NCBI GenBank assembly: GCA_030998015.1 | Contig: JARWMV010000077.1 | Location: forward strand, 1-64,000 | Length of the DNA stretch: 64,000 bases | From: Ceratorhiza oryzae-sativae | Lineage: Eukaryota > Basidiomycota > Agaricomycetes > Cantharellales > Ceratobasidiaceae | Direction: 5' to 3' | In this document: in pieces, positions 13,302 through 58,988 of the stretch | How positions within the stretch are numbered: the first letter of the stretch is position 1 | How the letters are laid out: each line of letters begins with the position of its first letter | Notes under the pieces: model-generated | Told to the model about the DNA's origin: nothing | The model's input: the letters and a program-made list of their open reading frames with translations, nothing else | Database searches by the model: none | Position numbers and translations under genes: made by a program

Positions 13302-13523
13302 CCGCGCGCGTTAGTTGCTGGTGGGACTTGTCCCACCAACCAACGTGAGCAATCGCAACCGTTTGCGATTGCTAGTGCGCGGCATAATATCGATATTTAG
13401 CCGCCGGCTGAAAATGACGAACGGTCGTCATTTTCTACGAGGGAATCTTTATGGGAGGTAGCCTGGACCATGAGACTCATGGTCAAGGCTACCTCATCTG
13501 AGGATTCCCTCTAACGCCGGCGG
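13302..13523 (-). mobile_element. family A element 10 (mirror of 3)
   Basis: Right-arm counterpart of 4,309-4,530. Confidence 0.9.
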
Positions 13524-16244: not shown

Positions 16245-16696
16245 AAATATTTATAAGACTGACATTTTAAAGGTATATCATATTAAAGATTAATATAATC
16301 ACATCCTCTATGAATGAAGAACTGTGGTTTCGCGTGTTTATACTATAAATACAGTCCAGGAAAATCCCACCCAGAATAGGCTTAAATCGGATTTATTGGT
16401 ATTTCACCAAACCACGGGAACCTGGTTAAAGCACAACCACGGAGTAGAAATAAAACACAGCCCTTCACCATAAGACGAAACCTAGGGCCATTCTGATAAT
16501 TCCTGAACTATATACTTGTCAGAAGTGCAGGTTAATTCGCTCTGCATAGAGCTTTAGCCAAACACAGTCGAAACGCCTACTTTAGTCGGAATCCTCCTGA
16601 TTGCGAGGTATCCCGGATTAATTAATCCGGGTACCTCGGAATCCACAGCGCAAAAGAATCGCGCCATCAAAATGGGTTAGTCAGTGGAGTATGGTT
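16245..16696 (-). promoter_or_regulatory. nad1-like 5' leader cassette, right-arm copy
   Basis: Inverted copy of the cassette at 1,138-1,589, directly upstream of the minus-strand LAGLIDADG ORF 1. Confidence 0.5.
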
Positions 16697-21017: not shown

Positions 21018-21263
21018 CCCGTGCACGCCTGCGAACGCCTTGGCTTAAGCCAAGCAAGCTTGGCTCATATTGACCTTAAGGTCAATGTAAGCCAAGGCGG
21101 CCCTGGCGTGCGCGCGGCGTCTGATTCCGAGGTACCCTGGAACTTAAAGTTCCAGGGTACCTCGCAATACCTCGCCGCGAACGCGGCCTCGATATCCATT
21201 ACCCCTCGGGTCAACAGCATGTATTTATATATAAATACAATGCTGGTTGACCCTAAGCGGGGG
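21018..21263 (+). mobile_element. family C element with TATGA duplication
   Basis: TATGA at 21,013-21,017 and 21,264-21,268. Full-length form, upstream of LAGLIDADG gene 3. Confidence 0.85.
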
Positions 21264-26197: not shown

Positions 26198-26520
26198 ATG
26201 CCCCCGCTCTATCGGCTAAAATCTTAGGTGTAACCCAAGATTTCAGCCGCCCTGCCTAGAGAACTGCGCTTTAGCGCACGTCTTGGCAGGGGTATCGATT
26301 AGCGGGGTACTGCTAAGCCCCCCATTTACAGTCACCAAGAATAAACCCTATAATGCCCCCGCTCTATCGGCTAAAATCTTAGGTGTAACCCAAGATTTCA
26401 GCCGCTAAAGCGGAGGGTCAACGACCCGTGGGCATTGTTAACGAGGCCGCGTTCGCGGCGAGCCGCGCGCACGCCAGGGCCGCCTTGGCAAGCCAAGGCG
26501 TTCGCAGGCGTGCACGGGTA
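26198..26520 (-). mobile_element. hybrid C2/D copy and a C2 copy
   Basis: 26,198-26,306 starts like C2 (CCCCCGCTCTATCGGC) but ends like D (TATCGATTAGCGGGG), so it is a recombinant. 26,355-26,519 is a C2 lacking the TGCCTAGAG arm. Confidence 0.75.
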
Positions 26521-30181: not shown

Positions 30182-30414
30182 AACCCGTGCACGCCTGCGA
30201 ACGCCTTGGCTCATATTGACCTTAAGGTCAATAATCAAGCCAAGTCGGCCCTGGCGTGCGCGCGGCGTCTGATTCCGAGGTACCCTGGAACTTAAAGTTC
30301 CAGGGTACCTCGCAATACCTCGCCGCGAACGCGGCCTCGGTAACCAAACCCCTCGGGTCAACAGCATGTATTTATATATAAATACAATGCTGGTTGACCC
30401 TAAGCGGGGGTTTG
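30182..30414 (+). mobile_element. family C element
   Basis: Inserted between the HKIGL codons and the body of LAGLIDADG remnant 7. Confidence 0.8.
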
Positions 30415-36654: not shown

Positions 36655-36918
36655 CCCCCGCTCTATCGGCTAAAATCTTAGGTGTAACCCAAGATTTCAG
36701 CCGCCCTGCCTAGAGAACTGCGCTTTAGCGCACGTCTTGGCAGGGGTAATAAAGCGGAGGGTCGACGACCCGTGGGTGTGGTTATCGAGGCCGCGTTCGC
36801 GGCGAGGTATTGCGAGGTACCCTGGAACTTTAAGTTCCAGGGTACCTCGGAATCAGACGCCCGCGTACGCCAGGGCCGCCTTGGCTTAAGCCAAGGCGTT
36901 CGCAGGCGTGCACGGGTC
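36655..36918 (-). mobile_element. composite C2 element within a family I block
   Basis: The C2-type start joins a C-type GGTACCCTGG arm. The whole is embedded between CGTCGCGCTGGG...CCCGAATGG and TTTCGGGCGTCCCCAGCGCG (family I). Near-identical composites are at 38,684-38,941 and 44,996-45,260. Confidence 0.75.
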
Positions 36919-38619: not shown

Positions 38620-39300
38620 TTTTGTTTATTTGCGTAACATTCCGTCGCGCTGGGTGCGCCCGAATGGATAAATCACACCCCCGCTCTATCGGCTAAAATC
38701 TTAGGTGTAACCCAAGATTTCAGCCGCCCTGCCTAGAGAACTGCGCTTTAGCGCACGTCTTGGCAGGGGTAATAAAGCGGAGGGTCGACGACCCGTGGGT
38801 GTGGTTATCGAGGCCGCGTTCGCGGCGAGGTATTGCGAGGTACCCTGGAACTTTAAGTTCCAGGGTACCTCGGAATCAGACGCCCGCGTACGCCAGGGCC
38901 GCCTTGGCTTAAGCCAAGGCGTTCGCAGGCGTGCACGGGTCACCTTTCGGGCGCACCCAGCGCGGCCGTCTCGCCGAGAATCGATGATTTGCGAAGGCAA
39001 ATCTACATCGATTCTCGAGGGTTAAATTCCACTCATTTAAAACCTTAATTAGAAGATTGACTTCCCGCCGGCGTTAGAGGGAATCCTAAAGATTCCCTCG
39101 TAGAAAATGACGACCGTTCGTCATTTTCAGCCGGCGGCTAAATATCGATATTATGCCGCGCACTAGCAATCGCAAACGGTTGCGATTGCTCACGTTGGTT
39201 GGTGGGACAAGTCCCACCAGCAACTAACGCGCGCGGAAGGTTGACAATTCATCCCATTTTACGGTCTTTTTATTACCCGTGCACGCCTGCGAACGCCTTG
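38390..39300 (-). pseudogene. LAGLIDADG homing endonuclease remnant 9
   Basis: Pieces EVNLLIKVLNEWNL (about 39,020-39,063, next to family A 33) and VIPSYSISVLQELLANVMPP (38,400-38,470) lie on either side of elements D, I and C2. Confidence 0.55.
39065..39236 (+). mobile_element. family A element 33 (short form)
   Basis: Splits LAGLIDADG remnant 9 before EVNLLIKVL. Confidence 0.9.
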
Positions 39301-39441
39301 GCTTGCCAAGGCGGCCCTGGCGTGCGCGCGGCTCGCCGCGAACGCGGCCTCGTTAACAATGCCCACGGGTCGTTGACCCTCCGCTTTAGCGGCTGAAATC
39401 TTGGGTTACACCTAAGATTTTAGCCGATAGAGCGGGGGCAT
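39277..39441 (+). mobile_element. family C2 element
   Basis: Short C2 lacking the TGCCTAGAG arm, CCCGTGCACGCC to GAGCGGGGGCATTA. Confidence 0.78.
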
Positions 39442-40537: not shown

Positions 40538-40741
40538 CCCGTGCACGCCTGCGAACGCCTTGGCTTAAGCCAAGGCGGCCCTGGCGTGCGCGCGGCGTCT
40601 GATTCCGAGGTACCCTGGAACTTAAAGTTCCAGGGTACCTCGCAATACCTCGCCGCGAACGCGGCCTCGATATCCATTACCCCTCGGGTCAACAGCATGT
40701 ATTTATATATAAATACAATGCTGGTTGACCCTAAGCGGGGG
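40538..40741 (+). mobile_element. family C element with TATGA duplication
   Basis: TATGA at 40,533-40,537 and 40,742-40,746, just before the tRNA-like sequence at 40,756. Confidence 0.85.
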
Positions 40742-44744: not shown

Positions 44745-45618
44745 TTTGAGTTACTACTTGGATTTTCTAACGCCGATTTTGGTAAGGACAGCACTTAGTG
44801 CTGCCCATCCCCGCCCCGCCTTGATCTCCAGGCGGTAAGATAAGTCGCGCTGAATCCAACCACGTCTGTGACGTCCCCCTGGGGTCACTCTGGCCAAAGA
44901 GGGACCATTCGGGGTTGGTCGCTCCCGACCCGTATACTCTTCTCTTAAAGGAAAACTAAACCGTCGCGCTGGGACCGCCCGAATGGATAAATCACACCCC
45001 CGCTCTATCGGCTAAAATCTTAGGTGTAACCCAAGATTTCAGCCGCCCTGCCTAGAGAACTGCGCTTTAGCGCACGTCTTGGCAGGGGTAATAAAGCGGA
45101 GGGTCGACGACCCGTGGGTGTGGTTATCGAGGCCGCGTTCGCGGCGAGGTATTGCGAGGTACCCTGGAACTTTAAGTTCCAGGGTACCTCGGAATCAGAC
45201 GCCCGCGTACGCCAGGGCCGCCTTGGCTTAAGCCAAGGCGTTCGCAGGCGTGCACGGGTCACCTTTCGGGCGCATTACCTATTTTTCACCGTCTCGTGTC
45301 AACATAGTTGACCGGCCGGTGAAAACTCGGTCATCGCAGATGTCCGGCAGGGGTTAGTCAAAGACTAACCCGCTTACCGTCCCCAGCGCGGCCGGCTCGA
45401 GGGTTAGTTTTGAGGTTAGGGTTGATTGTACATGGGCTTCGCCGAAGGCCATGGGTCCCAGGCCCGGTTAGGCCGCGTTCGTGGCGAGGTATTGCGAGGT
45501 ACCCTGGAACTTTAAGTTCCAGGGTACCTCGGAATCAGACACCCGCTAGGGTATTTACCTTAAACTGTAGTTGCATGGCAAATTTTCTATCAGGGTTGAA
45601 ATTGTCAATTACATTATC
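44745..45618. other. spacer dominated by a C2/I/J composite, no gene identified
   Basis: 44,960-45,345 is element sequence (I, C2 with a C arm, J). 45,400-45,545 repeats a C-type GGTACCCTGG arm. Plus-strand 45,546-45,618 reads an AT-rich piece of unknown nature. Confidence 0.5.
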
Positions 45619-47481: not shown

Positions 47482-47716
47482 GACCCGTGCACGCCTGCGA
47501 ACGCCTTGGCTCATATTGACCTTAAGGTCAATAATCAAGCCAAGTCGGCCCTGGCGTGCGCGCGGCGTCTGATTCCGAGGTACCCTGGAACTTAAAGTTC
47601 CAGGGTACCTCGCAATACCTCGCCGCGAACGCGGCCTCGATAACCATTACCCCTCGGGTCAACAGCATGTATTTATATATAAATACAATGCTGGTTGACC
47701 CTAAGCGGGGGTATGA
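47482..47716 (+). mobile_element. family C element
   Basis: GACCCGTGCACGCC to GCGGGGGTATGA. Flanks are TTTTGA and TATGA, not a perfect repeat. Confidence 0.8.
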
Positions 47717-49157: not shown

Positions 49158-49254
49158 TAATATTTACCGTTAAAAATTTTACCTGATCTAACTTTTCGGG
49201 AAACTGTGGTCTTATTAACACCAAATTCAGCAGCTAGCTCTATTTGATTTTTGA

Positions 49255-49481
49255 CCCGTGCACGCCTGCGAACGCCTTGGCTCATATTGACCTTAAGGTC
49301 AATAATCAAGCCAAGTCGGCCCTGGCGTGCGCGCGGCGTCTGATTCCTAGGTACCCTGGAACTTAAAGTTCCAGGGTACCTCGCAATACCTCGCCGCGAA
49401 CGCGGCCTCGATAACCAAACCCCTCGGGTCAACAGCATGTATTTATATATAAATACAATGCTGGATGACCCTAAGCGGGGG
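49255..49481 (+). mobile_element. family C element with TTTGA duplication
   Basis: TTTGA at 49,250-49,254 and 49,482-49,486. Collapsing one copy joins IKTFK to NQIELA in frame. Confidence 0.9.
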
Positions 49482-49608
49482 TTTGAATGTTTTAATCAAA
49501 TTATTTTCCATGTCGTATATTCCTAAGGGATTTTTACTCATTACATCAGAAATTTTATTTCTAGTTTCAGAGGTATGGGTGAACATAGGATTTAACTCGC
49601 CAGGTTTG

Positions 49609-49643
49609 CTTCCATGCAAGATTTATAAAATCTTGCTGGACCT
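49609..49643 (+). mobile_element. family F hairpin inside GIY-YIG gene 1
   Basis: CTTCCATGCAAG...CTTGCTGGACC around AAGATTTATAAAATCTT, 33 bp (11 codons), inserted between KLIR and KPGELNP without frameshift. Other copies: about 978, 4,271, 13,526, 16,780, 19,158, 25,065, and nested in A elements 29, 35, 40 and 44. Confidence 0.75.
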
Positions 49644-49671
49644 GATTAACTTAATTGATTCTAGTGTATGA

Positions 49672-49915
49672 CCCGTGCACGCCTGCGAACGCCTTGGCTT
49701 AAGCCAAGCAAGCTTGGCTCATATTGACCTTAAGGTCAATGTAAGCCAAGGCGGCCCTGGCGTGCGCGCGGCGTCTGATTCCGAGGTACCCTGGAACTTA
49801 AAGTTCCAGGGTACCTCGCAATACCTCGCCGCGAACGCGGCCTCGATAACCATACCCACGGGTCAACAGCATGTATTTATATATAAATACAATGCTGGTT
49901 GACCCTAAGCGGGGG
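49672..49915 (+). mobile_element. family C element with TATGA duplication
   Basis: TATGA at 49,667-49,671 and 49,916-49,920. Collapsing one copy joins FGKNH to TLESI in frame. Confidence 0.9.
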
Positions 49916-49995
49916 TATGATTTTTCCCAAACATCGGGTGGTTGGTTTTATCTACAAATCTAGCTTTCATTTTAGATATTGCCTCAGCCGTGTGT

Positions 49996-51040: not shown

Positions 51041-51349
51041 GATCTGTGAATCTTTCATACATATCTTTGCTGGACCCTATGTATTGTTTTCCATCTTTAG
51101 TGTTGACTAAACCATAAACACCGCCAACTTTTTTAAGATCTGCACGAACATCTTTAGGATCATTTAAATCAGAATATACCTTTAAAGGCACTAATGCAGA
51201 GATTAAGCTAGATACCATATTATTTGGAAGGATAAAGTTAAGTATCTCTTCAAATTCAATTAACATAGTAAATATAACTGTAATTAAAAACACACAAAGT
51301 AAAATTGAAAATAGATATCCTCTAAGAGGAAATAAGAAATTAATCAAAC

Positions 51350-51557
51350 CCCCGCTTATCGGCTAAAATCTTAGGTGTAACCCAAGATTTCAGCCGATAC
51401 GCGTAGACCCGAGGGGTTTGGTTATCGAGGCCGCGTTCGCGGCGAGGTATTGCGAGGTACCCTGGAACTTTCAGTTCCAGGGTACCTCGGAATCAGACGC
51501 CGCGCGCACGCCAGGGCCGCCTTGGCTTAAGCCAGGGCGTTCGCAGGCGTGCTCGGG
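51350..51557 (-). mobile_element. family C element with TCAAA duplication
   Basis: TCAAA at 51,345-51,349 and 51,558-51,562, immediately upstream of the GIY-YIG gene 1 start. Confidence 0.87.
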
Positions 51558-53974: not shown

Positions 53975-54168
53975 CCCGTGCACGCCTGCGAACGCCCTGG
54001 CTTAAGCCAAGCAAGCTTGGCTCATATTGACCTTAAGGTCAATAATCAAGCCAAGGCGGCCCTGGCGTGCGCGCGGCTCGCCGCGAACGCGGCCTCGATA
54101 ACCAAACCCCTCGGGTCAACAGCATGTATTTATATATAAATACAATGCTGGATGACCCTAAGCGGGGG
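53975..54168 (+). mobile_element. family C element with TTTGA duplication
   Basis: TTTGA at 53,970-53,974 and 54,169-54,173. Collapsing one gives DLTEYQKEVIFGT in frame. Lacks the GGTACC arm. Confidence 0.9.
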
Positions 54169-55349: not shown

Positions 55350-55512
55350 CCCCCGCTTATCGGCTGAAATCTTAGGTGTAACCCAAGATTTCAGCCGATA
55401 AGCGGAGGGTCAACGACCCGTGGGTATGGTTATCGAGGCCGCGTTCGCGGCGAGCCGCGCGCACGCCAGGGCCGCCTTGGCTTAAGCCAAGGCGTTCGCA
55501 GGCGTGCACGGG
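55350..55512 (-). mobile_element. family C/C2 element with TCATA duplication
   Basis: TCATA at 55,345-55,349 and 55,513-55,517. Collapsing one joins KIYVYD to ATNFTLVSGG in frame. Confidence 0.9.
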
Positions 55513-57600: not shown

Positions 57601-57895
57601 CTACAGCCCAATTTTGTGTAACATCATAACAGGCATAAGGTTTTTTAGTAAACTTTGCATTTTAGGTAAGCTTCGTTTGGGTATTTTGATTCTATAACTA
57701 TCTCTTTCTTTGTAAACATAACTCTCTAAATTCCAGTTGGCATTTAAAGTATTAGATAATAGAGTTACTTCTTCGTAACTAAATGAGTCAGTACAAAGAA
57801 TAACCAATGACCCCCCAAACTGATGCAGCTATGCTGCATTGTTTGGGGGGGTAATGGCTCGGAGGCCATTGAGTGTGTTTTTTGACCCGTGCACG

Positions 57896-58079
57896 CCTGC
57901 GAACGCCCTGGCTTAAGCCAAGCAAGCTTGGCTCATATTGACCTTAAGGTCAATAATCAAGCCAAGGCGGCCCTGGCGTGCGCGCGGCTCGCCGCGAACG
58001 CGGCCTCGATAACCAAACCCCTCGGGTCAACAGCATGTATTTATATATAAATACAATGCTGGATGACCCTAAGCGGGGG
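57896..58079 (+). mobile_element. family C element with TTTGA duplication
   Basis: TTTGA at 57,891-57,895 and 58,080-58,084, right after the EDGSF motif. Confidence 0.88.
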
Positions 58080-58824: not shown

Positions 58825-58988
58825 ACCCGTGCACGCCTGCGAACGCCTTGGCTTGCCAAGGCGGCCCTGGCGTGCGCGCGGCTCGCCGCGAACGCGGCCT
58901 CGTTAACAATGCCCACGGGTCGTTGACCCTCCGCTTTAGCGGCTGAAATCTTGGGTTACACCTAAGATTTTAGCCGATAGAGCGGGGG
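58825..58988 (+). mobile_element. family C2 element at the N-terminus of the intron 1 endonuclease
   Basis: Short C2. Its mirror begins at 63,881 and is cut by the window end. Confidence 0.78.

Follow-up and report, generated by a model that had tools for sequence, protein, structure and literature searches.

Mitochondrial hairpin elements of Ceratorhiza oryzae-sativae insert beside short words that covary with an internal complementary segment

Results

The locus and the survey

The window, the whole stretch of DNA analysed here, comprises bases 1-64000 of a 72,711-base contig (C77; other contigs are named likewise) in the 48.8 Mb assembly of C. oryzae-sativae. It contains nad4, nad6, six tRNA genes and several LAGLIDADG open reading frames (ORFs), and the ORFs of the surveyed contigs also include cox1, cox2 and additional nad domains; the window is thus mitochondrial DNA. 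It also contains many copies of a hairpin element that we refer to as family C (Table 1), two of which, at 49,255 and 49,672, are the focal copies of this study. Mitochondrial sequence is highly redundant in the assembly, the same stretches occurring in many contigs (a 190-base stretch of the window is found at 25 places in the assembly with 100% identity), and copy counts taken over the whole assembly are therefore inflated; the right-end 14-mer of family C, for example, occurs 708 times in these redundant contigs.

We surveyed 316,880 bases of mitochondrial DNA from seven contigs, two of them in full and five in part, leaving out occurrences 40 bases or less from the start or 420 bases or less from the end of a contig piece. 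This yielded 144 left ends of family C, 57 of them with distinct left flanks. Distinctness was decided on 13 bases of left flank, which reduces the many copies fused at their left to a second hairpin family, X, to just two. Removal of these two, of three copies with no recognisable internal segment and of nine with X at their right left 43 distinct two-ended copies; the nine were used solely in one count of complementarity to the left word (n = 52) and in the CATTA lineage test, both described below. The window itself has 27 left ends, and 16 of these belong to copies that also have an identifiable right end and are not fused to a second family.

Family C elements are 116-262 bp long, GC-rich, palindromic and dispersed many times in the mitochondrial DNA, as expected of GC clusters and double-hairpin elements, and six representatives fold as hairpins. 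Some copies (window 49350-49380 and 49785-49815) contain a nested palindrome, GGTACCCTGGAACTTAAAGTTCCAGGGTACC, that others lack, which partly accounts for the range of lengths. A single-hairpin relative of family C, with flanks of its own, occurs at three loci. The three copies of the TGTGA group in the window have similar flanks and apparently represent one larger repeat.

Table 1. Positions of family C copies and related features in the window. Paired words are the left and right flanking pentamers.
Feature	Position	Strand	Remarks
Single TATGA of natural empty site	16309..16313	+	CACATCCTC-TATGA-ATGAAGAAC; filled at C81:37240
C element	21018..21263	+	TATGA/TATGA
C element, CATTA subfamily	26356..26518	-	
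C copy	30184..30410	+	left TATGA plus one extra A, right TTTGA
C element, TGTGA group	36655..36916	-	left GGTGA; guide CACACCC
C element, TGTGA group	38678..38939	-	similar flanks
C element, CATTA subfamily	39276..39438	+	left TATTA, right CATTA; guide AATGCCC
C element	40538..40741	+	TATGA/TATGA
C element, TGTGA group	44997..45258	-	similar flanks
C copy	47484..47711	+	left TTTGA, right TATGA
Left (target) pentamer TTTGA, first focal copy	49250..49254	+	
C element, TTTGA subfamily, first focal copy	49255..49481	+	CCCGTGCACG to GCGGGGG
Guide-like internal segment CAAACCCC	49416..49423	+	complementary to right end GGGGTTTG
Right pentamer TTTGA, first focal copy	49482..49486	+	bases 0-3 complementary to the guide-like segment; placed in the closing stem of the 3' hairpin by the fold of the 53975 copy
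Left (target) pentamer TATGA, second focal copy	49667..49671	+	
C element, TATGA subfamily, second focal copy	49672..49915	+	
Guide-like internal segment CATACCC	49851..49857	+	complementary to right end GGGTATG
Right pentamer TATGA, second focal copy	49916..49920	+	
C element	51349..51557	-	TTTGA/TTTGA
C element	53975..54168	+	TTTGA/TTTGA
C element	55350..55512	-	TATGA/TATGA; duplicate at C77 67348 within NUMOD1 frame
C element	57886..58079	+	TTTGA/TTTGA; within LAGLIDADG_2 frame
C element, CATTA subfamily	58826..58988	+	

Four bases are shared by the two flanking words

Left and right pentamers are identical in eight of the 16 two-ended copies of the window, and their last four bases in 14. 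The preliminary description of this DNA had named eight copies with identical 5-bp flanks; all eight are so flanked (we re-read the words of five) and they are exactly the window copies with five-base identity, the other eight two-ended copies having been omitted. Its coordinates were accurate apart from 57,891, which should be 57,881, and 51,345, where the pentamer occupies 51344-51348. It had looked to a wider survey for copies lacking the duplication, and our survey upheld the matching words: five bases are identical in 30 of the 43 distinct copies and four in 39. When right ends were shuffled among copies, four-base identity averaged 16.3 and never exceeded 27 in 20,000 permutations. With loci grouped at 60% similarity of either flank, it was seen in 27/30 groups, compared to a maximum of 24 in 100,000 shuffles. 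Moreover, in the control hairpin family X from the same DNA, no site out of 97 shares words in register, and a single one does so with a one-base offset. The permutations and this control rule out chance as the source of the matching words.

The size of the shared unit can be read from the first base of the pentamer (base 0). Left flanks have T at base 0 in 40/48 cases and A at base 4 in all 48, with A/T enriched at two more bases on each side of the word. In the two-ended CATTA copies, base 0 is T on the left (6/6) and C on the right (6/6), and four other copies have G on the left and T on the right. The right word thus receives its base 0 from the element, and any duplication is of 4 bp at most, except that a fifth shared base is possible in the two CATGA copies, in which both words begin with C. 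Judged as a duplication of fixed length, the flanks are equal over 4 bp in 39/43 copies, but base 0 follows the element, as does the right word in each of the four discordant copies. The 5-bp staggered duplication by an integrase proposed in the preliminary description is rejected on these grounds, since the first base of the right word comes with the element rather than from the target, and the six-frame searches of the assembly gave no candidate for such an enzyme (see below). Its statement that the target is always the same type of pentamer was likewise too strong, given the TATTA...CATTA copies (26518-, 39276+, 58826+) and the GGTGA...TGTGA copies (36916-, 38939-, 45258-).

Empty sites and interrupted reading frames

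Sequence-selective insertion at a single pre-existing word, as first suggested for this locus, is borne out both by these copy statistics and by natural empty sites, which are paralogous places inside this genome whose alignments were read by eye. The filled site at C81 37240 aligns with window bases 16296-16323 at 26 of 28 bases with the TATGA intact, the match being nine bases long on the right and longer on the left. The TTTGA copy at C67 15516 corresponds to an element-free stretch, C81 8164-8233, with 89% identity over 71 columns and TTTGA present once. Five further copies (C81 40941, C81 57553, C81 8246, C85 28364 and C85 33382) show a gapless junction relative to their paralogs, in which the single word has diverged to varying degrees. 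The scan for paralogs returned eight candidates, several of which are filled copies themselves, and the scrambled control gave 4/43. For the two focal copies, no empty allele was seen among the 40 scored of 304 candidates in the assembly: these 40 gave 90 matches to the joined focal flanks, and the middle of the joined flanks was found at 25 places with 100% identity and at two with 99%, each interrupted at both junctions.

The restoration of endonuclease frames by collapsing one word, claimed in the preliminary description for five copies, held in part. We examined ten single-pentamer frames, chosen as the most endonuclease-like of 43. A Pfam endonuclease or NUMOD match (E <= 0.001) spans the junction in five of them (57886, the 67348 copy of 55512, C81 40941, C81 57553 and C85 28364), although at 57886 the match passes the junction by only four residues. 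Three frames have a weak junction-crossing match (best E 0.0067 to 0.086), and in the remaining two (53975 and C81 55182) the match lies to one side of the junction. As for the two peptides quoted previously, KIYVYD-ATNF was recovered and FGKNH-TLESI was not seen among the longest frames per site.

An internal segment complementary to the flanking words

A feature absent from the earlier account, together with the subfamily-specific targets, is a short internal segment (CATACCC, CAAACCC, AATGCCC or CACACCC) located 5' of the 3' palindrome. It is complementary to bases 1-3 of the right word in 42/43 copies and to the same bases of the left, or target, word in 38/43 (46/52 with the X-at-right copies added); sliding the segment by one to four bases reduces complementarity to 0-3/43. 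The pairs formed differ between subfamilies, which show compensatory changes between segment and word. At base 1, the pairs are A:T in 29 copies, T:A in 10, G:C in three and T:T in one; at base 3, they are G:C in 37 and T:A in six. At base 0, T:A occurs in 28 copies and C:G in six, and nine, each with guide type CATTACCCC, do not pair in register. There are five guide types altogether, representing some three or four independent compensatory changes. The right word forms part of the closing stem of the 3' hairpin in four of the six folded representatives (those of TATGA, TTTGA, CATTA and TGTGA) with RNA and DNA parameters alike. The CATGA representative folds differently, its expected closing stem not forming fully, and that of guide CATTACCCC pairs across an internal loop with RNA parameters and has its outer bases open with DNA parameters.

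Target preference follows the element lineage

Loop markers that lie outside both the word and the guide predict the target. Copies with the marker GGATGACCC have TTTGA as their left word in 7/7 cases, versus 1/21 of those with GGTTGACCC (Fisher p = 6.8e-6), and left ATTA is found in 13/15 copies of the CATTA lineage and 0/37 of the others, both tests treating loci as independent, which is roughly true only. Preference for a target is thus a property inherited within element lineages, which a duplication without memory does not account for. In the whole, redundant assembly, 50 exact matches to the right half bearing guide CATACCCC and the T marker precede TATGA, and none precedes TTTGA.

In the four copies with unequal tetramers (C77 30184, C77 47484, C81 55182 and C81 57553), the right word fits the guide and the left word does not. 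Copy 47484 has the same right flank as C81 37240 and a different left flank, and is therefore probably a recombinant of two dispersed C copies. The left words of C81 57553 and C81 55182 may have mutated later, since C85 3041, a paralog of the former, has TTTGA, and a left flank similar to that of the latter, at C81 40304, has TATTA. The reverse exception is C67 15516, in which both words are TTTGA and the guide is CATACCCC. Its loop marker is that of the TTTGA lineage (the A marker, which places this copy outside the string count above), and its guide may thus have changed after insertion.

Candidate enzymes and other hairpins

Six-frame searches of the 48.8 Mb assembly, which intron-split genes could escape, gave no match to the Y1 transposase family PF01797 (control positive in 5/14 genomes) or to the tyrosine recombinase family PF00589 (control positive in 14/14 genomes). 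Within the reach of these searches, a classical integrase or tyrosine-recombinase (Crypton-like) element was rejected as an identity for family C. In the mitochondrial DNA, we scanned 58 of 102 distinct ORFs of at least 130 codons against Pfam (E <= 0.001). They match 16 families, which comprise homing endonuclease, NUMOD and respiratory-chain domains together with a few weak matches found once each (YkiC, Tower and helix-turn-helix). Homing endonucleases are the commonest (14 LAGLIDADG_2, five GIY-YIG and three LAGLIDADG_1), and no recombinase, HUH or reverse transcriptase domain was found in these 58. Reverse transcriptases are numerous in the genome, nuclear and mitochondrial together (150 scored of 811 candidates). 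At Rfam gathering scores, the window contains no group I or group II intron core, its only matches being four tRNAs.

Family X (CCGCGCGCGTTAG...CTAACGCCGGCGG) has 98 distinct left flanks in the survey and occurs at window positions 13302, 23263, 27369, 43498 and elsewhere. It lacks direct repeats and has inverted four-base flanks at 19/97 sites, as if it entered hairpin tips. C and X elements are also joined end to end with exact borders (window 10099, 19464, 23437, 36285, 26770, 48270, 49157 and 56673), the word then being missing on the fused side. Large palindromes occur as well, and seven of nine centres lie on hairpin elements (C77:8915 and 61432; C67:40832 and 65031; C85:15435; and pieces of C92 and C93). 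They reflect snap-back or hairpin-ended DNA, if they are not artefacts of the assembly.

Discussion

Our analysis of family C revealed elements with precise ends and four bases of identity between their flanks, empty sites that hold a single word, a right-hand base 0 borne by the element, an internal segment whose complementarity covaries with the word, and a target that is linked to markers elsewhere in the element. We consider it about an even call that family C is a non-autonomous, GC-cluster-like mitochondrial double-hairpin element in which the terminal stem or the internal segment specifies the target by pairing. On this model, the element would insert precisely 3' of a word of the NNTKA type (mostly TATGA, TTTGA or TATTA), whose last four bases match the right terminus of the element at the base of the 3' hairpin stem. 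The internal segment, or the terminus itself, would select the target by base pairing, with each subfamily carrying its own address of three to four bases, although that pairing is the cause of the choice is our inference from the covariation. Less certain still is a further step, in which a single-stranded or hairpin intermediate would be processed by an enzyme as in IS200/IS605. Several observations weigh against a guided element: neither a Y1 transposase nor a tyrosine recombinase was found in the assembly or among the 58 scanned mitochondrial ORFs, no guide was seen at the left end, the subfamilies are few, two of six folds deviate, base 0 is unpaired in the nine copies with guide CATTACCCC and the guide of C67 15516 is mismatched to its words. 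The discordant copies that favour an element-borne right word number only four.

Homing endonucleases of the LAGLIDADG type leave 4-nt 3' overhangs. An enzyme that cuts with a 4-nt stagger could generate an ordinary 4-bp target-site duplication, the internal complement then being made later by hairpin-templated correction. The equal tetramers of 39/43 copies and the prevalence of homing endonucleases among the scanned mitochondrial ORFs speak for such an origin, as does C67 15516, where the equal words are not matched by the guide and the empty site holds TTTGA; intron endonucleases have also been proposed as helpers of GC-cluster mobility, in the part of that account considered here (PMC4478555). 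We nevertheless think it improbable, as it leaves unexplained why a loop marker predicts the target (7/7 versus 1/21) and why base 0 is borne by the element, the right word fits the guide and the left does not in 4/4 discordant copies, and the target, apart from being AT-rich at two bases to either side, has no long recognition sequence of the endonuclease kind. We give similarly little credence to template switching during replication through a microhomology of four to five bases, whereby a strand would jump to the left word of a donor copy and return from its right word with no need of a dedicated enzyme. This scheme does predict that a new copy takes its left word from the target and its right one from the donor, which fits the four discordant copies. 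Copies also seem to recombine with one another (47484), and most of the large contig palindromes (seven of nine) are centred on hairpins. What it fails to explain is the covarying internal segment, the precision of the ends in spite of four shared bases and the lack of such words in the control family (0/97). Stagger duplication and template switching are both possible, and neither alone accounts for a covarying segment together with an inherited preference.

Even less probable, in our estimation, is a route through RNA, in which an RNA of the element would pair with the target and be inserted by reverse splicing or by target-primed reverse transcription. The elements do form stable RNA hairpins, the genome is rich in reverse transcriptases, and the part of PMC4478555 considered here suggests copy-and-paste by reverse transcription for the yeast GC42 cluster. 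On the other side of the balance, the window has no intron family at Rfam gathering scores, the 58 scanned of 102 mitochondrial ORFs have no reverse transcriptase domain, and annealing of a whole-word primer would result in a right word derived from the target, contrary to the discordant copies.

Elements of Allomyces mitochondrial DNA have a two-hairpin architecture. They resemble family C in being mitochondrial hairpins whose mobility is inferred, and differ from it in that the flanking duplications typical of DNA transposition are absent there, according to the portion of PMC2800124 available to us, which compares sponge elements with those of Allomyces. Palindromes of Fusarium are presented in PMC7218506. 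The yeast GC clusters (GC42 and others) are flanked by AG or ACT, and their mechanism is left open in the sections of PMC4478555 used here. Family C differs from them in its length of 116-262 bp and in its four-base word, which varies by subfamily in step with an internal segment; covariation of this kind does not figure in those sections of the yeast account (PMC4478555). More broadly, of the papers listed by literature searches on mitochondrial hairpin elements and GC clusters, none mentions in its title or abstract opening that mitochondrial elements carry segments complementary to their targets.

A further parallel comes from bacteria. In IS608, as set out in the part of PMC5934647 considered, each terminal palindrome is preceded on its 5' side by a guide that pairs with a cleavage site of four nucleotides, insertion occurs 3' of the target, and changes in the guide retarget the element. 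Family C shares with IS200/IS605 elements, IS608 among them, and with bacterial REP elements the subterminal palindromes, the guide 5' of a palindrome and the insertion 3' of a word, as far as the excerpts used describe them (PMC5934647; PMC8266576). Its right end has the anatomy of that of IS608 as described there, with a guide, a 3' palindrome and a word that would correspond to the cleavage site. There are also differences: the two IS608 words, TTAC and TCAA, are unlike each other, whereas the target and right-end words of family C are the same; no TnpA-like gene was found in the assembly; and the host DNA here is that of an organelle. By eye, no left guide (CAT, CAA or AAT) was seen in the stretch that separates the left word from the first hairpin of the C sequences examined. 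Family C is patterned like a guided element, but we do not assign it to IS200/IS605, since neither the Y1 enzyme nor a left guide was found. We tentatively put forward, while judging it somewhat unlikely, that family C is an organellar counterpart of the DNA-guided transposition of IS608, in which guide pairing would choose the site, a change of guide would provide a new address and the enzyme would probably be encoded in the nucleus. The parts of PMC4478555 and PMC2800124 considered here do not settle by what mechanism mitochondrial GC clusters and hairpin elements move, and the matched targets and segments of family C make a mechanism testable. If target choice by pairing proves true, nucleic-acid-guided transposition would extend to organelles, and the precision with which an element without genes inserts would be explained.
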